52,916 bases of DNA, from assembly GCA_025062095.1 (NCBI GenBank), contig JANXAZ010000006.1, positions 1 to 52,916 of the forward strand, given 5' to 3'. The DNA is from Geminicoccaceae bacterium (GTDB lineage: Bacteria > Pseudomonadota > Alphaproteobacteria > Geminicoccales > Geminicoccaceae). The notes under the pieces are model-generated. The model saw nothing but the letters and a program-made list of their open reading frames with translations. It had not been told where the DNA came from and searched no databases. A program made the position numbers and the translations under genes. Below are positions 16,474 through 23,342 of the stretch, in pieces (the stretch's first letter is position 1; each line of letters begins with the position of its first letter).

Positions 16474-17031
16474 TCAAGGCTCGAGTTCGACGTCCCAGTA
16501 AAGATAGTCGCGCCAGCTCTCGTGCAAATAATTGGGCGGAAACAACCGCCCGTTGCGCTGCAACTGCGCCATCGTCGGCGCATAGGGCTTGGTCGCGGGA
16601 TACATCCCGCACTCTTCGGGGAGCCGATCTCCCTTGGTCAGATTGCACTGGGTACAGGCGGTGACGATGTTGAGCCAGTGGGTTCGCCCTCCGCGCGAGC
16701 GCGGCACGATGTGATCGAACGTGAGCTCGTGCGCCGGGAACTGAACGAGACAATATTGGCAGGTGAAGCGATCGCGCAAAAACACGTTGAACCGCGTGAA
16801 AGGCGGCTTGCGGTTCTGCGGCACGTATTGCTTGAGCGCGACCACCGAGGGCAGGCGGAACTCGCGGCGCGCGGATCGAATGGTGCGGTCGTAATGCGAG
16901 ACCACGTCGACCCGCCCGAGGAAGATCGCCTTGATCGTCTCCTGCCAACTCCAGACCGATAGCGGATAATAGGACAGCGGCTGGTAATCCGCGTTCAGAA
17001 CCAGGGCGGGAAAGCCGTTCAGCGGGAGCAT
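16474..17031 (-). CDS. HNH endonuclease
   Basis: 185 residues with an HNH nuclease fold: a CQYC pair near residue 91, LTFDHIVPRSRGG (the first catalytic His), HWLNIVTACTQCNLTKGDR (Asn and second CxxC). The N-terminal MLPLNGFPALVLNADYQPLSYYPLSVWSWQ, minus its first residues, is typical of a widespread chromosomal HNH family in alphaproteobacteria that is not obviously mobile. Cellular role unknown. Convergent with dksA, 36 bases apart. Confidence 0.9.
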   Translation of the reverse strand: MLPLNGFPALVLNADYQPLSYYPLSVWSWQETIKAIFLGRVDVVSHYDRTIRSARREFRLPSVVALKQYVPQNRKPPFTRFNVFLRDRFTCQYCLVQFPAHELTFDHIVPRSRGGRTHWLNIVTACTQCNLTKGDRLPEECGMYPATKPYAPTMAQLQRNGRLFPPNYLHESWRDYLYWDVELEP

Positions 17032-17372
17032 GCGCCGCTCCTCCGCTCCCCCGAGCGTGGAACCGTACGAATCCTCTTCCGACCCGCCGTGTCGGTTTCC
17101 GAAGCCATCCGCTCGAAAGGTCCGGCCTCCGCGGTGCGCCCATTTTGTAGCCTAGTTCCGCAACAATTGCGAGGCAACCGTCGCCCCGGCCGACGACCGG
17201 CAGGGGCGAGCCCGGCCGCGAGCGATCTCGAACTGTTCGAAACAAAAAGTGATTTCCGGCGCGCCCCCGACGGCCCGGCGCTCTTGGTGAACCGGTGCGC
17301 GCGCATTACAAGCCCTTCCGCGAGAACGAGGGCGAACGCCGACACAGCTCGGGGAAACCGCGAACCGCGCCC
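17032..17372. other. intergenic region upstream of ferric-iron permease gene
   Basis: Divergent promoter region between the HNH gene and the iron permease gene. It includes an AT-richer patch (CGAAACAAAAAGTGATTTCC near 17240) that could hold a promoter. No convincing gene or consensus operator was recognised; an in-frame extension of the permease back to 17295 is possible. Confidence 0.4.
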
Positions 17373-19118
17373 ATGGCGATTTCGAGCCGCACCGCGCAGC
17401 TCGCCCCGCCTTCCCGGAGCGGGCTCGTCCGCCCGCTCTTCGAGGGCGCTCCGCGCCTTCTCGGCGCTCTGGCCTTGGCCCTTCTGATCGCCGCCCCGGT
17501 CCTCGTTCTCTTCGTCTATGTCGGTCGGCCGGACGAGGGCCTGTGGTCGCATTTCGTCCGCACCGTCCTCTTGGACCACCTCCGCGATACGACCCTTCTC
17601 GTCGCGGGCACGACGATCGGCACGCTGATCATCGGTGCCGGCACCGCCTGGATCGTCACGCTCTACCGCTTTCCCGGACGGCGGATCCTGAATTGGGCTC
17701 TGGTCCTGCCGCTGGCCATGCCGAGCTACGTGCTCGCCTACGCCTGGACCGATCTCCTCCAGGTGACGGGTCCGATCCAGACGACGCTTCGGGCGATGAC
17801 CGGCCTCGGGGTCCACGACCTCTGGTTCCCGGAGATCCGGTCGCTGGGCGGAGCGATCTTCGTTCTGACCCTCGCCCTCTACCCGTACGTCTATCTTCTG
17901 GCCAGAGCGGCCTTCCTCGAGCAGTCGCAGTGCGCTCTCGAAGTCAGCCGGACCTTGGGGTGCAGTTCCGGAGAAGCCTTCCGCAGGGTCGGACTACCGC
18001 TCGCGCGGCCGGCGATCGCGGCCGGCCTCGCCTTCGTGGTCATGGAGACCCTGGCCGACTTCGGCGCCGTCAAGCATTTCGAGGTGGCGACGCTGACCAC
18101 GGCGATCTACCGCGCCTGGTACGCCCTCGGCAGTCCCGTCGTCGCGGCCCAGCTCGCCCTTCTCTTGGTGGGTCTGGTCGCCGCGGTGCTCGCCATCGAG
18201 CGGCGCGCGCGCGGCCGTGCTCGGTACGCTACCGGGACGGTACACATCTTCCGCAAGCGACGCGAGCCCTTGCAGGGTGCCAAGGGTTGGGCGGCGACGG
18301 CCTTCTGCGCTCTGCCCGTGCTTCTGGGCTTCGTTCTGCCGGCGGCCGGGCTGATTCTCATGGCGCTCGAAGAGCAACACGAACTCTCCGGCGCGCGCCT
18401 GGTGCAGCTGACCGTCAACACGCTCCAGCTCGCGGCCTGGGCGAGCCTGATCGTGGTCGCAACCGCGCTTCTCGGAGTCCACATTGTCGGCCGCGACCGC
18501 ACCGGCCCCGCGGCTCGGCTCGTGCGGCTCGCCACCTTGGGCTACGCGGTTCCGGGTGCGGTCGTCGGCGTGGGCCTTCTGTTGTTCCTCGGTTGGCTCG
18601 ATCGGACCCTCGACGGACTGCTCCACGCGGTCGCCGGTCGCGGGCTGCCCTGGGTCCTCACCGGCTCGCTCGCCGCCGTGCTCTACGGCTATCTCGTCCG
18701 CTTCTACGCGATCGCGCACAATCCGCTCGACGCCGGCATGGCCAAGGTCTCCCCGGCTCTCGTCGACGTCGCGCGCGTGCTCGGCAGCCGACCGGTCCGG
18801 ATCTTGCGGCGCGTCCATTTGCCGTTGTTGCGCCCGAGCCTTCTCACCGCCCTTCTGCTCGTGTTCGTCGAGACGATGAAGGAGCTGCCGGCGACCTTGA
18901 TCCTGCGGCCGTTCGACTTCGATACGCTGGCGATCGAAGCCTATCATCTCGCCAGCACCGAGCGCCTCTACGCCGCGGGTCTGCCCTCGCTCGTGATCGT
19001 GGTCGCGGGTCTCGCTCCGGTGATCCTTCTGTGCCGGATGCTCGATCGCCGCCGCCCGAACATCGGTCGGGCGGCGGCCGAGGCTCTCACTTCCAGCCAC
19101 ATTGATCGACGAGCTTGA
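17373..19118 (+). CDS. ferric iron ABC transporter permease (FbpB/SfuB-like)
   Basis: 581 residues: two fused copies of the binding-protein-dependent permease domain, about twelve membrane helices. Both copies show the EAA-type loop: EVSRTLGCSSGEAFRRVGLPLARPAI near residue 190 and DVARVLGSRPVRILRRVHLPLLRPSL near 465. The order and length match FbpB/SfuB of periplasmic Fe(III) uptake. ATG 17373 is preferred over the upstream GTG/ATG codons because it gives a short polar leader before helix 1. The gene converges with the binding-protein gene and overlaps its end by 32 bases. No ATPase gene is beside it. Confidence 0.9.
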   Translation: MAISSRTAQLAPPSRSGLVRPLFEGAPRLLGALALALLIAAPVLVLFVYVGRPDEGLWSHFVRTVLLDHLRDTTLLVAGTTIGTLIIGAGTAWIVTLYRFPGRRILNWALVLPLAMPSYVLAYAWTDLLQVTGPIQTTLRAMTGLGVHDLWFPEIRSLGGAIFVLTLALYPYVYLLARAAFLEQSQCALEVSRTLGCSSGEAFRRVGLPLARPAIAAGLAFVVMETLADFGAVKHFEVATLTTAIYRAWYALGSPVVAAQLALLLVGLVAAVLAIERRARGRARYATGTVHIFRKRREPLQGAKGWAATAFCALPVLLGFVLPAAGLILMALEEQHELSGARLVQLTVNTLQLAAWASLIVVATALLGVHIVGRDRTGPAARLVRLATLGYAVPGAVVGVGLLLFLGWLDRTLDGLLHAVAGRGLPWVLTGSLAAVLYGYLVRFYAIAHNPLDAGMAKVSPALVDVARVLGSRPVRILRRVHLPLLRPSLLTALLLVFVETMKELPATLILRPFDFDTLAIEAYHLASTERLYAAGLPSLVIVVAGLAPVILLCRMLDRRRPNIGRAAAEALTSSHIDRRA

Positions 19119-20109
19119 GCGCTTCCGCGCTGCGCCGCGCGTAGACGGCGGCATTCATGGTATCCTGCTTGAAACTGCCCCAGGACGCCACGATCGCACC
19201 CGGCGGCACGGCCGGATTGGCCGGGTATTCGAAGTTGACGTCGGCGAGATAACGCTGGGCTTCGGGGGAGACGAGGTATTCGATGAGCTTGACCGCGTTC
19301 GCGCGGTTGGGCGCGTATTTGGCGAGACCCACCCCGCTCACGTTCACGTGCGTACCGCGATCACCCTGATTGGGAAAGAAAATCCCCACCTTCTCGGCGA
19401 CCTCTTTGTCTTCGGCTTTGCCCGAGCCGATAAGCCGGCCGAGATAATAGCTGTTCGAGATCGCCACGTCGCCCACGCCGGCCGCGACCGCCCGGATCTG
19501 ATCCGTGTCTCCGCCCTGCGGCGGCCGCGCCAAATTCTGGACGAAACCGCGACACCACGCGAGCGTCTTGTCGTAGCCGTTGGCCTCGATGAGCGAACCG
19601 ACCAGACCGAGATTGTAGATGTTGGTGCTCGACCGCGCGAGAATCCTGCCTCTCCACTTGGGATCGGCGAGCGCCTCGTAAGTCGAGAGCTCGTTCGGCT
19701 TCACGCGATCCGTGTTGTAGATGAGAACGCGCGCGCGCACCGTGAGCCCGACCCAACGATCCTCGGGGTCGCGCAGATGCGCCGGGATCGCCCGGCGGAC
19801 GAGCTCCGAACCGATCGGTTGCAACAGCCCCTTCTCGACCGCGACGTGCAGGCGTCCCGCGTCCACGGTGATGAAGAGATCGGCGGGCGAACGCGCCCCT
19901 TCCGATTCCAGACGTTGCAGGAGCGGGTCGTGGTCGCCCGAGACCACTCGGACTTCGATCCCGGTGGCGGCCTTGAAGCCGTCCCAGAGTTGTTGGTCGG
20001 TGCCGTAGTGTCTGGCGTTGTAGACGTTGACGACCTGCTGCGCCTCGCTCGGCATCGACCAAATCAAGGCCAAGCCGCAGATCGCGAGCAGACGACCTTT
20101 AGGTACCAT
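19087..20109 (-). CDS. ferric iron ABC transporter substrate-binding protein (FutA/FbpA-like)
   Basis: 340 residues, exported: signal peptide LLAICGLALIWSMPSEAQQ, then a type II periplasmic binding fold. Iron-site features include NVYNARHYGTDQQ near residue 28, the SSTNIYN segment and the Tyr pair ISNSYYLGRL near 220. It captures Fe(III) in the periplasm for the permease encoded on the facing strand. The ATG at 20107-20109 follows GGAGG. Although functional partners, the two genes are convergent and cannot form one operon. Confidence 0.9.
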   Translation of the reverse strand: MVPKGRLLAICGLALIWSMPSEAQQVVNVYNARHYGTDQQLWDGFKAATGIEVRVVSGDHDPLLQRLESEGARSPADLFITVDAGRLHVAVEKGLLQPIGSELVRRAIPAHLRDPEDRWVGLTVRARVLIYNTDRVKPNELSTYEALADPKWRGRILARSSTNIYNLGLVGSLIEANGYDKTLAWCRGFVQNLARPPQGGDTDQIRAVAAGVGDVAISNSYYLGRLIGSGKAEDKEVAEKVGIFFPNQGDRGTHVNVSGVGLAKYAPNRANAVKLIEYLVSPEAQRYLADVNFEYPANPAVPPGAIVASWGSFKQDTMNAAVYARRSAEALKLVDQCGWK

Positions 20110-20325: not shown

Positions 20326-20658
20326 GTGCGACGGCATCACGACATGGGCGGGCTCGAAGCCGGGCCGATCGAGCGACACGAACACGAGCTCGAGCCGTGG
20401 GAAAAGAAGGTCGATGCGATCTTGCGCCTGTTGATGGCCAAGAAGGTCATGACGCTCGACGAGTTGCGTCGCGGTATCGAGGATCTCGGCCCCGGAGCCT
20501 ACGACGAGCTGTCGTATTTCGAGCGCTGGATCGCCTCGATCGCCAACATCCTGGTCGAAAAGGGCGTGGTGACCGTACAGGAACTGGGCGAGGCGATCGA
20601 AGCCGCCCGTGCCCGCCGCGCCGCGGCCGCGGCCTGCCGCGCGGAATCTTCGCCGTGA
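20326..20658 (+). CDS. nitrile hydratase/thiocyanate hydrolase-like, beta N-terminal half
   Basis: 110 residues matching the helical N-terminal half of nitrile hydratase beta: HDMGGLEAGPI at the start, then LDELRRGIEDLGPGAYDELSYFERWIASIANILVEKGVVT (compare the family pattern of FRHAIE and YYEHW). It lacks the SH3-like half, which is the next gene. Thiocyanate hydrolase and toyocamycin nitrile hydratase have beta split this way; the p14K-type activator is also a homologue, so a chaperone role is the main alternative. GTG 20326 is chosen because the family motif begins before Met 20344; ATG 20305 is possible. Overlaps the next gene by four bases (GTGA). Confidence 0.82.
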   Translation: MRRHHDMGGLEAGPIERHEHELEPWEKKVDAILRLLMAKKVMTLDELRRGIEDLGPGAYDELSYFERWIASIANILVEKGVVTVQELGEAIEAARARRAAAAACRAESSP

Positions 20659-20954
20659 GCACCTCGCCTTTCCGGCCCGGCCAGAGGGTACGGGTCAAGG
20701 CCCTGTTCCCTCCGGGGCATTGCCGGACGCCTCATTACACCCGTGGCAAGTGCGGGCGCATTCTCGATCTCCTCGACATCGAACCAGATCCTCAGGAACG
20801 CGCTTACGGTCGTCCGGGCCTTCCCCCGATTCCGGTCTGGCGGGTCGTCTTCGCGCAACGCGAGCTGTGGCCCGATTATCGCGGCCCGGCGCATGACGAA
20901 CTCGTCGTCGGCATCTTCGAGTCCTGGCTCGAACCCGTGGAGGACGACCCGTGA
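20655..20954 (+). CDS. nitrile hydratase/thiocyanate hydrolase-like, beta C-terminal half (SH3-like)
   Basis: 99 residues equal to the SH3-like C-terminal domain of nitrile hydratase beta. RPGQRVRVKALFPPGHCRTPHYTRGKCGRIL holds the conserved HxRxPxYxRGK-like segment whose Arg contacts the oxidised metal cysteines in known structures. VWRVVFAQRELWPDYRGPAHDELVVGIFESWLEP is the family ending. Starts at GTG 20655 inside the previous stop and ends overlapping the alpha gene by four bases, so all three subunits should be made together. Confidence 0.88.
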   Translation: MSTSPFRPGQRVRVKALFPPGHCRTPHYTRGKCGRILDLLDIEPDPQERAYGRPGLPPIPVWRVVFAQRELWPDYRGPAHDELVVGIFESWLEPVEDDP

Positions 20955-21610
20955 ATGGACCTCTCGACCACGATCACGATCACGAACACGGCGAACCGCA
21001 CCGTCACCCGCCGCGGCCCGATCTCGAGGACGGTCCGTACACCTGGCACATGGCGCTCACCGATGCCGTCGCCGACCTCCTCCTCGCCAAGGGGCTGATC
21101 ACGGCCGACGAGCTGCGGCGCACCGTGGAAGAGATCGACGCCAAGAGCCCGGCTCTCGGCGCGCGCCTGGTCGCCCGCGCCTGGGTCGATCCGGCCTTCA
21201 AGGCGCGCTTGCTCGCCGACGTCAACGCGGCCGCCGCCGAACTCGGCATCGATGCCGGCGGCATCCCGATCCGCGCGATCGAGTGCGGCCCGGGCGAGCA
21301 CCATGTCATCGTGTGCACGCTCTGCTCTTGCTATCCGCGCCTGCTGCTCGGGCCGCCACCCGATTGGTACAAGGCGCGGGCCTATCGGTCGCGCGTGGTC
21401 CGGGAGCCGCGCGCGGTCTTGGCGGAGTTCGGCTTGGAGCTGCCCGCAGACGTCCGCGTCGTCGTCCACGACAGCACAGCCGAACTCCGTTTCATGGTCC
21501 TGCCCCGGCGCCCCGAGGGCACCGAAGGATGGGACGAAGAGCGTCTGGCTTCCCTGGTGACCCGCGATTGTCTGATCGGGGTCGCCGTCCCGCGCGTGCC
21601 CGAAGGGTGA
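20951..21610 (+). CDS. nitrile hydratase/thiocyanate hydrolase-like, alpha (metal) subunit
   Basis: 219 residues. The metal-binding loop VCTLCSCY (Cys122, Cys125, Cys127) has Thr and Tyr at the positions typical of low-spin cobalt enzymes; iron types read VCSLCSCT. ADVNAAAAELGI and WYKARAYRSRVVREPRAVLAEFGLELP are typical of alpha. The N-terminus has a His/Asp-rich stretch (DHDHDHEHGEPHRHPP), perhaps a metal-acquisition tail. The usual Trp after CSCxP is Arg here (CSCYPRLLLG), inside the substrate pocket. Reaction is hydration of a nitrile, or thiocyanate to carbonyl sulfide and ammonia; the split-beta organisation favours the latter or a special nitrile (inference). Confidence 0.92.
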   Translation: MNGPLDHDHDHEHGEPHRHPPRPDLEDGPYTWHMALTDAVADLLLAKGLITADELRRTVEEIDAKSPALGARLVARAWVDPAFKARLLADVNAAAAELGIDAGGIPIRAIECGPGEHHVIVCTLCSCYPRLLLGPPPDWYKARAYRSRVVREPRAVLAEFGLELPADVRVVVHDSTAELRFMVLPRRPEGTEGWDEERLASLVTRDCLIGVAVPRVPEG

Positions 21611-22152
21611 GGATTGCCGCGCTCGCGAGTGTGCTCCTCGTCGCTTCGTGCTGGGCCGCGCAGGCGGATCAGCGGGATCCCCGGCTCGGATCGCTCTTCG
21701 CCCAACTCGAGAAAGCGGATGCGGTCGCGGCGCGGGCCATCGAAGCGCGGATCTGGGCGATCTGGGGCACGATCGACGATCCCGAGGCGCAGGACCTTCT
21801 GGAGCGCGGCAGCGTCGCCATGGCGAACCGCGACTATGCCGCGGCCATGACCGCGTTCGACGCGCTCACCGCCCGCTTTCCGGACTTCGCCGAGGGGTGG
21901 AACCGGCGCGCCACGCTTTTCTGGATCCTGGGAGACGACGAGGCCGCGCTGCGCGACATCCGCCGCACCCTCGCGCTCGAGCCGCGCCATTTCGGAGCGC
22001 TCGCGAGCCTCGGTCTCGTACTCTTGCGGCTCGGCCGCGAGGAGCAGGCCCTGCGGGCCTTCGAGGCGGCTCTTCGTATTCATCCGAACTCGGCGGTGGC
22101 TCGCTACCACGTGGCGAAGTTGCGGGAGCTCGCGCGAGAAGGCGCGCTTTGA
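21607..22152 (+). CDS. exported TPR protein at end of the hydratase operon
   Basis: 181 residues. Signal peptide RIAALASVLLVASCWAAQA with a possible lipobox (VASC), so it is either a lipoprotein or a periplasmic protein. Then a helical region (DPRLGSLFAQLEKADAVAARAIEARIWAIWG) and about three TPR units (GSVAMANRDYAAAMTAFDALTARFPDFAEGWNRRA; LGDDEAALRDIRRTLALEPRHFGALASLGL; LGREEQALRAFEAALRIHPNSAVARY). TPRs mediate protein contacts. Similar TPR proteins are widespread alone in alphaproteobacteria, so its place in this operon (GTG start overlapping the alpha stop) may be accidental. Its 3' end overlaps the convergent glycosyltransferase by 49 bases. Confidence 0.85.
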   Translation: MRIAALASVLLVASCWAAQADQRDPRLGSLFAQLEKADAVAARAIEARIWAIWGTIDDPEAQDLLERGSVAMANRDYAAAMTAFDALTARFPDFAEGWNRRATLFWILGDDEAALRDIRRTLALEPRHFGALASLGLVLLRLGREEQALRAFEAALRIHPNSAVARYHVAKLRELAREGAL

Positions 22153-23342
22153 TCGGTTCGTGCGAGTTCGGTCGACGGGGTGGCCGCGCCCGGCCGCGCG
22201 AACCTGTCCGGAAACAGCCGAGCCAACAACCGCGCGTGGTCGTCCGTGTCGACCGCGACCCGTTCCGGCAAATGCGCGATGTGGTCCACGACCGCGCGCC
22301 AACGCACCTCGTCGAGGGATTCGAGGAGCCGCTCGAGATTGTCGGCAACGGGTTCCCCGAGCACCCAGCCGGCGCCGTGGGTCGCGACGAACTCGGCGAT
22401 CGCCGTGCCCTCGAGCGCGAGCATCGGGCGATGGAAGCAGATCGCATCATACATGCGATTGGCGAAGGCGAACCTGGCGTTCAACCCCCCTTGGTAGTGG
22501 ACGATCCACACGAGGTCGGCGCTCGAACAGATCTCTCCGAGCTCGTCGGGATGTCGATACGGCCCACCATAAGTGACGTTCGGTAGGGCGCGAACGCGCG
22601 ATTCCAGTTCGCGAGCGACGGTTCCTTGCGGGATGCCGCGGATGACCACGGTGACGAGGTCCGGCCGCCGGGCCGCGAGGCCGGAGAGGATGTCGAAGCT
22701 TCGTTCGCACCGCAAGTAGCCGAGCCAGAGGATCCGCCACGGACGTCCCGGACGGCGGGGCGGCAGCCGTGCCGCCTTCGCGCGTTCGCGAGCGACCGCG
22801 ACGTCTTCCTCCGGAAGCTTGTTCTCGAGGAGGAACCAAGGGCCGCGATAGCCCATGCGCGGCCGGTAAAAACGTTCCACGTACCAAGGGGAGCTCACGA
22901 CGAGGAGAGCGGTTCGCGCCAACACGAGCCGCTCGACGGCGCGGAGGAGGGCCGAGATCGGGCCGGCGTCGGTTTGGAGGGGGTGGAGATCGAGGACCTC
23001 GTAGACGAAACGAGCGCGAACGCGCGCGAGGCACGCGACGGCGAGAGCGACGACCGCCTGCTCGAGGTTGCGCGCCATCAGGATGTCCGCGTCGCGCAGC
23101 GCTTCTCGGTTGCGCCAGAAGGCGAGGATGCCCGCGAGGATCGCGAAGACCCGATGCACGAAGGCGCGATCGGCGGCTCGCGCCAAGACGACCGGACGGA
23201 GCTCCGGATCGCCCTTCCCCCGCCCGCGATGGAAGCCGAAAAGCCGGAGCGAGCAGCCCAGTCTGAGGAGCTGGCGGCACCGGTTGCGGACCCGTCCGTC
23301 GGCGACGTCGTGGGCGACGTAGACGATCCGGATCGGCCGCAC
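22104..23342 (-). CDS. glycosyltransferase, GT4-like
   Basis: 412 residues of a GT-B fold transferase. N-terminal Rossmann segment IRIVYVAHDVADGRVRNRCRQLLRLG, donor half with ILWLGYLRCERSFDILSGLAARRPDLVTVVIRG, GGPYRHPDELGEICSSADLVWI and a C-terminal RMYDAICFHRPMLAL resembling the E-x7-E loop region, although the classical Glu pair is not clear. Probably acts on surface polysaccharide. GTG start at 23340-23342, 10 bases after the mmsA stop, so transcription may continue from mmsA. Donor and acceptor unknown; the C-terminal 25 residues are low-complexity. Confidence 0.8.
   Translation of the reverse strand: MRPIRIVYVAHDVADGRVRNRCRQLLRLGCSLRLFGFHRGRGKGDPELRPVVLARAADRAFVHRVFAILAGILAFWRNREALRDADILMARNLEQAVVALAVACLARVRARFVYEVLDLHPLQTDAGPISALLRAVERLVLARTALLVVSSPWYVERFYRPRMGYRGPWFLLENKLPEEDVAVARERAKAARLPPRRPGRPWRILWLGYLRCERSFDILSGLAARRPDLVTVVIRGIPQGTVARELESRVRALPNVTYGGPYRHPDELGEICSSADLVWIVHYQGGLNARFAFANRMYDAICFHRPMLALEGTAIAEFVATHGAGWVLGEPVADNLERLLESLDEVRWRAVVDHIAHLPERVAVDTDDHARLLARLFPDRFARPGAATPSTELARTDQSAPSRASSRNFATW

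Follow-up and report, generated by a model that had tools for sequence, protein, structure and literature searches.

Described relatives of the split-beta hydratases

The closest described system is AnhDEA of Streptomyces canus CGMCC 13662, a three-subunit cobalt nitrile hydratase encoded in the order anhD-anhE-anhA. According to the available excerpts of its report (PMC7329996), the enzyme hydrates acetamiprid, thiacloprid, and benzonitrile, AnhD serves as a chaperone for cobalt loading via subunit swapping, no activator was found in the S. canus genome, and the alpha subunit alone or with one beta half is inactive or nearly so. The same excerpts report canonical nitrile hydratases that do not need an activator, and an alpha subunit, ToyJ of the three-subunit toyocamycin nitrile hydratase ToyJKL, that is active alone.

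Two further types serve for comparison. Thiocyanate hydrolase (SCNase), e.g., ScnBAC of Thiobacillus thioparus (PDB 2dd4), has a split beta encoded in the order scnB-scnA-scnC and Arg after the CTLCSCYP motif of its catalytic chain. The canonical two-subunit cobalt nitrile hydratases (e.g., PDB 1ire and 3qxe) are characterized by an intact beta gene, a separate activator, and Trp after CTLCSCYP.

Here, we analyze a candidate hydratase operon of a Geminicoccaceae bacterium, located in a window of 52,916 bp, i.e., the whole analyzed stretch of contig JANXAZ010000006.1 (assembly GCA_025062095.1). An earlier note on this DNA missed AnhDEA, an already described case of this gene order in a three-subunit nitrile hydratase that works without an activator. 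As judged from the excerpted description, the locus resembles AnhDEA in the order of betaN-like anhD, betaC-like anhE, and alpha-encoding anhA, in the lack of an activator in the genome, and in the cobalt-type enzyme; it differs in belonging to another phylum and in the TPR gene, which those excerpts do not report beside anhDEA. The likeness to ToyJKL is limited to the three subunits: the locus has no toyocamycin genes among its annotated neighbors, and ToyJ is the alpha described as active alone.

Organization of the operon

Four genes on the plus strand, encoding betaN, betaC, alpha, and a TPR protein, overlap head-to-tail at positions 20326–22152 (Table 1). The earlier note had described a three-gene hydratase with a split beta, an order like that of scnB-scnA-scnC, a cobalt-type motif (CTLCSCY in alpha), and identical 4-base GTGA overlaps at all three junctions; the domain matches and the sequence bear out this description, gene boundaries included. 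For betaN, GTG 20326 was chosen as the start codon, the frame being open from GTG 20299.

Table 1. Features of the hydratase operon (positions in the window)
Feature	Positions	Strand	Basis
betaN, beta subunit N-terminal half, 110 aa, GTG start	20326..20658	+	PF21006, TIGR03888, PDB 3qxe_B, SCNase beta 2dd4_B
betaN Leu47, column of SCNase betaArg90	20464..20466	+	residue counts
betaN Arg48, near-invariant beta arginine of the family	20467..20469	+	residue counts
betaN Arg67 in YFERW, common to SCNase	20524..20526	+	residue counts
GTGA overlap betaN/betaC	20655..20658	+	sequence; kept in genus
betaC, beta subunit C-terminal half, 99 aa	20655..20954	+	PF02211, TIGR03888, PDB beta chains, SCNase alpha 2dd4_A
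GTGA overlap betaC/alpha	20951..20954	+	sequence; kept in genus
alpha, cobalt-type catalytic subunit (putative), 219 aa, His-rich N-terminus	20951..21610	+	PF02979, AlphaFold2 model, PDB folds
CTLCSCYPR, metal claw and alpha Arg130 (position of SCNase gammaArg136; Trp in canonical enzymes)	21314..21340	+	sequence; residue counts; titles of PDB 3vyg and 3vyh
GTGA overlap alpha/TPR	21607..21610	+	sequence; kept in genus
TPR protein with signal peptide, 181 aa; in the operon in this genus	21607..22152	+	TPR repeats

All 15 corresponding junctions in five other species of the genus have A or G before the stop, which allows eight ATGA and seven GTGA overlaps. Translational coupling is thus conserved, and the occurrence of three identical GTGA overlaps at one locus is unremarkable. 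The recurrence of the betaN-betaC-alpha order in relatives (see below) shows that it is not a chance reading of frames.

The three enzyme chains match the respective Pfam domains: betaN matches NHase_beta_N (PF21006; E-value 1.2e-21, 77.4 bits at a cut-off of 21.5), betaC matches NHase_beta_C (PF02211; 1.1e-16, 61.5 bits at a cut-off of 27.7), and alpha matches NHase_alpha (PF02979; 1.3e-74). Hence the features of the nitrile hydratase superfamily are present, an alpha with the CTLCSC claw and the NHase_alpha fold along with both beta domains, the latter in two genes. On TIGR03888, betaN covers positions 2–106 of 226 (72.7 bits), and betaC covers positions 137–226.

The alpha subunit scores below the cut-offs of both NCBI equivalog models, TIGR01323 (239.9 vs. 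249.85 bits) and TIGR03887 (211.5 vs. 291.45). Two other split-beta alphas pass the former (257.0 and 267.5), and the latter is passed by two proteins named scnC by PGAP (356.8 and 359.2). The single-chain AlphaFold2 model of alpha has a mean pLDDT of 88.1, with residues 1–24 below 50. In the PDB fold search this model resembles alpha chains of nitrile hydratases and gamma chains of SCNase equally (Z 24.9–27.0), the lowest rmsd being that to SCNase gamma (1.7 over 190 residues).

Two minor observations concern these chains. The NHase_alpha profile hits betaN in two places, across some 40 residues, so that betaN and the helical N-terminal part of alpha resemble duplicates of a single hairpin. 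In addition, alpha weakly matches an MshE-type c-di-GMP motif, below the cut-off (19.9 bits of 38).

Phylogenetic position and key residues

Three unrooted trees were constructed: a quick alpha tree of 124 out of 164 rows, with redundant ones removed; a careful alpha tree of 72 hand-chosen rows, with the long-branched L065 left out; and a tree of beta halves with 64 hand-chosen rows. The frameshifted gene of L057 was excluded from all trees and residue counts. In both alpha trees, one branch (support 100 in the quick tree and 100/99 in the careful one) separates all canonical alphas and the nitrile hydratase references from all split-beta alphas, the fusions, and the SCNases, and the beta halves show the same division into canonical and split rows (99/99). 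By its sequence, the locus belongs to a large, little-described split-beta clade that lies on the SCNase side of the trees, with the canonical enzymes on the other. A grouping of alpha with two-subunit nitrile hydratases, which the earlier note had named as fatal to its reading, is seen neither in the alpha trees nor in the beta-half tree. The same clade includes the alpha encoded on a Streptomyces plasmid (L218), where the gene layout is the same. By the scores of the NCBI models, the clade is closer to nitrile hydratase alphas, yet it stands apart in the trees.

The SCNases fall among the split rows in all three trees, at differing places. Their position inside the split clade has a support of 98/96 in the careful alpha tree (bootstrap not settled), 81 in the quick tree, and 83/26 in the beta-half tree, and a tree with SCNase outside, as a sister to the split clade, is not rejected (p-AU 0.137).

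Residue counts were made over 127 split, 3 SCNase, and 22 canonical rows, the canonical group including two loci with a split beta. The residue following CTLCSCYP is Arg in 117 split rows, Lys in six, and another residue in four (Val, Gly, Trp, Ile); it is Arg in all three SCNases, and among canonical rows Trp (19), Phe (2), or Tyr (1). Judging by their titles, two solved mutant structures exchange the residues at this position, PDB 3vyg (SCNase R136W) and 3vyh (nitrile hydratase alphaW116R). Two further columns divide the groups in a similar way: Arg before the Trp of YYERW in betaN (118/127 split, 3/3 SCNase, 2/22 canonical), and Trp near the end of betaC (Trp91 at this locus; 127/127 split and 2/2 SCNase vs. 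Tyr 18, His 3, and one gap in canonical rows). The column of betaN Arg48 is occupied by Arg in nearly all rows (125/127 split, 3/3 SCNase, and 22/22 canonical). Finally, the column of SCNase betaArg90 has Arg in the three SCNases and Leu in 98 of 127 split rows as well as at this locus.

Distribution among genomes

NHase_alpha was found in 50 of 96 genomes of relatives, including 6/6 in the genus and 27/31 in the family. A scan of named genomes with the patterns CTLCSCYP and DSTA..R.. was used to take the best 80 loci. Of these, 75 have the betaN-betaC-alpha order; they come from Alpha-, Beta-, and Gammaproteobacteria, Rubrobacter, Streptomyces, Binatota, Rokuibacteriota, and Chloroflexota, and since the set was chosen by likeness to this locus, it gives no frequency. 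The remaining five comprise one betaN-alpha fusion, one betaC-alpha-betaN order, and three loci, all at contig edges, where no beta was found. Searches of alphaproteobacterial genomes and the named loci show the layout to be common in this class. According to the public annotation, the same three genes are carried by a Planktothrix agardhii plasmid. On the plasmid of Streptomyces sp. NBC_01176 (L218:3194-6966) they are followed by an aquaporin gene and, two genes further along, by a gene for a nickel/cobalt transporter, and in another Streptomyces locus (L198) betaN-betaC-alpha likewise precede aquaporin and nickel/cobalt transporter genes.

In the relatives, the tally covers 62 of 69 rows. 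It omits six short G063 matches and a G055 copy located at a contig edge, and it enters one broken gene as two stretches; the numbers are not independent events, as the genomes are related. Arg after CTLCSCYP or CSLCSCYP is found in 37 alpha stretches, of which 34 have a split beta, two are betaN-alpha fusions, one has no beta in reach, and none has an intact beta gene. By contrast, among the 22 stretches of the Trp, Phe, or Tyr type, 20 have an intact beta and two a split one. One more stretch has Val and a split beta, and two are unreadable by motif. Arg-type stretches are thus commoner here (37 vs. 22), and none of them has an intact beta; this contrast offers a natural experiment on the Trp/Arg position, where structures of both swap mutants have been solved. 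The split-beta hydratases reach beyond thiocyanate hydrolase, the toyocamycin enzyme, and one Streptomyces; our literature listings, which cover few subscription journals, contain no study of the whole clade.

Two unusual arrangements were observed. In two loci of G055 (L068 and L069) and in L168, betaN and alpha of the Arg type are fused in one open frame, and the profile finds no betaC nearby. A second kind of split beta occurs on the minus strand at L054:7361-8640 (G022) and at L009 (G057), where the order is alpha-betaN-betaC-activator, Trp follows CTLCSCYP, and the proteins fall within the canonical side of the trees. The two are not sisters in the beta-half tree, so that splitting of beta may have happened on more than one occasion.

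Activator genes and genomic neighborhood

The assembly (3.30 Mb in 143 contigs, 99.57% complete) contains one NHase_alpha and one NHase_beta_N over the cut-off. A search of the assembly with NHase_beta_N found no full-length beta gene elsewhere, the sole other row being alpha itself (11.1 bits), and a search with the activator model TIGR03889 found no separate activator, returning betaN alone (16.9 bits). The absence of a cobalt activator, noted earlier for the vicinity of the operon, thus extends to the whole assembly, and the full beta gene whose presence elsewhere would have told against the earlier reading did not turn up. The same TIGR03889 search identified an activator over the cut-off in 5/5 genomes with a canonical hydratase and in none of the six split-type genomes searched (G000, G001, G002, G005, G006, G017). 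The clade offers a set of cobalt enzymes that seemingly do not need an activator. The locus differs from the canonical two-subunit type in having no intact beta gene, no separate activator, and an alpha that does not group with the canonical references, while it shares with that type the fold, the claw motif, and the conserved beta residues. A separate activator is not strictly defining for the canonical type, as activator-independent canonical enzymes have been reported.

No recurrent partner gene that might hint at the substrate was observed around 98 loci, either by clustering of neighbors or when they were queried for an amidase, an aquaporin, an activator, or transporters of cobalt; as many loci are short contigs, missing neighbors are weak evidence. 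A nickel/cobalt transporter together with an aquaporin was found at one of the 98 loci (L198), and an amidase at three, one of them about 7 kb off. The activator queries match two loci (L173 and L177), in both cases exactly where betaN is encoded.

Upstream of the operon, a solute-binding protein gene on the minus strand lies beside a plus-strand gene for a fused two-part ABC permease (17295–20109). This pair adjoins the hydratase and is syntenic in the genus and in one neighbor genus. Among 24 loci of the family, eight have the solute-binding protein gene beside the operon (the six of the genus, L039, and L052), and in L044 it is 4 kb off. Two other minus-strand genes of the window encode a 412-aa glycosyltransferase-like protein with no Pfam or NCBIfam match at 1e-5 (22107–23342) and a protein with an HNH endonuclease domain, weakly similar to the HNH part of the IscB and Cas9d models at scores far below the cut-offs (16477–17031).

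Proposed enzyme and its substrate

We propose that betaN, betaC, and alpha are probably the subunits of a single cobalt hydratase belonging to the nitrile hydratase superfamily, with a split beta and activator-free maturation similar to that of AnhDEA. Alpha would bind Co(III) through the claw, with two claw cysteines oxidized; betaN and betaC would jointly act as a two-piece beta chain that closes the active site; and the C-N triple bond of the substrate would be hydrated to an amide. By analogy with the S. canus enzyme, betaN probably doubles as the cobalt-loading, subunit-swapping chaperone, so that no activator would be needed, and the stop-start overlaps would keep the chains in step. The locus shares with AnhDEA the betaN-betaC-alpha order and the lack of an activator, the latter in a nearly complete assembly. 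Its assignment to the AnhDEA type rests on these two features, and maturation most likely proceeds in the same way.

As for the substrate, the replacement of the pocket Trp by Arg hints at a small or polar nitrile, which is a guess. The large aromatic nitriles accepted by AnhDEA speak against it if AnhA has the same Arg. Indeed, the same three-subunit enzyme might hydrate ordinary organic nitriles in the manner of AnhDEA, the Arg being irrelevant to substrate choice. We give this reading a substantial chance, somewhat short of even: the range of AnhDEA (acetamiprid, thiacloprid, benzonitrile) is consistent with it, and so is the Streptomyces split alpha of L218, which also has CYPR, whereas the retention of Arg in the great majority of split rows, at the very site swapped in the SCNase and nitrile hydratase mutants, suggests that this residue is important.

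The TPR gene

The earlier note had also suggested that the hydratase has an exported TPR lipoprotein as its partner, and had asked whether the TPR gene stays beside the hydratase in relatives. It does so in the genus, where the gene overlaps alpha by 4 bases in 6/6 genomes and the other TPR proteins are 67–72% identical to the one considered here, but in other genera the two lie apart. TPR matches (E ≤ 1e-15) were found in 27 of 60 relatives and adjoin alpha in the six genomes of the genus only. Of the 25 other genomes of the family, 13 have an ortholog (12 at 45–61% identity, the remaining one at 37%), located either on a different contig or at a distance of about 10 kb or more, and two of the 13 sit in assemblies without an NHase_alpha match.

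The N-termini of all six TPR proteins of the genus have a hydrophobic signal followed by a common ADQ.DPRL motif, in agreement with export. An apparent lipobox Cys is present in only one of the six species, and we reject the lipoprotein assignment.

A dependence of the enzyme on the TPR protein as a partner in export, assembly, or cobalt supply seems unlikely. The overlap with alpha, kept throughout the genus, argues for it; against it are the distant orthologs, including those in genomes without NHase_alpha, and the contrast between the apparently exported TPR protein and the enzyme chains, on which no signal was noticed by eye. From the comparison of these genomes, the TPR protein is best seen as a separate exported protein whose gene rides along with the operon in this genus, although co-expression of its gene with the operon may matter.

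Comparison with thiocyanate hydrolase

The earlier note considered thiocyanate a possible substrate. An SCNase at this locus, converting SCN- to carbonyl sulfide and ammonia, would agree with the identical gene order, with alpha Arg130 at the place of gammaArg136, betaN Arg67, and betaC Trp91, all common to SCNase, with the position of SCNases on the split side of the alpha and beta-half trees, and with the lowest rmsd of the alpha model being to SCNase gamma. We nevertheless regard this function as very improbable, for several reasons. Firstly, alpha misses the TIGR03887 cut-off, which the two annotated scnC proteins pass. Secondly, only one of the two pocket arginines is present, that corresponding to gammaArg136, whereas the betaArg90 column is occupied by Leu; we take these two arginines to set the selectivity of SCNase jointly. 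Thirdly, SCNases form a tight group of their own on a long branch in the careful alpha tree (100/100). Lastly, betaN is shorter (110 aa vs. 157 aa in SCNase beta). The locus was therefore not assigned to the thiocyanate hydrolases, and this part of the earlier note did not hold.

A TIGR03887 search of 289 genomes of the class gave matches in 36 of them at E ≤ 1e-60, none over the cut-off. The same model gave no match in 398 genomes of the phylum at E ≤ 1e-75, a threshold at which no control matched either, so that this result does not demonstrate absence.

The weakest alternative, also foreseen in the earlier note, is that the 110-residue gene encodes only an activator and alpha works alone or with betaC, as reported for ToyJ; it is consistent with the relatedness of betaN to activators (17.9 bits on TIGR03889) and with the activity reported for ToyJ in the excerpts of PMC7329996, but the far better match of betaN to TIGR03888, the retained beta residues Arg48, Tyr64, and Trp68, and the near or full inactivity of the S. 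canus alpha without both halves, given in the same excerpts, make it highly improbable.

A broader scenario would join the hydratase proposed here with the SCNases in one old split-beta, Arg-pocket, activator-free lineage spread across phyla. SCNase would have arisen inside it by gaining the second pocket arginine, the lineage as a whole would be a resident function of the chromosome, acting on nitrile-like compounds that are small and polar or anionic, and betaN would be both a subunit and a cobalt chaperone. We put this forward tentatively and consider it possible, if rather doubtful as a whole; the clade nevertheless offers a possible route for the origin of thiocyanate hydrolase.

Finally, thiocyanate hydrolase genes over the TIGR03887 cut-off were observed on plasmids of Azospirillum ramasamyi (L212:3985-5627) and Roseomonas marmotae (L213:3978-5627). 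In both, the two beta halves are fused in one 283-aa protein annotated as "SH3-like domain-containing", and the neighboring genes include metal-transport genes (HupE or CbtAB) and a TauE/SafE gene.
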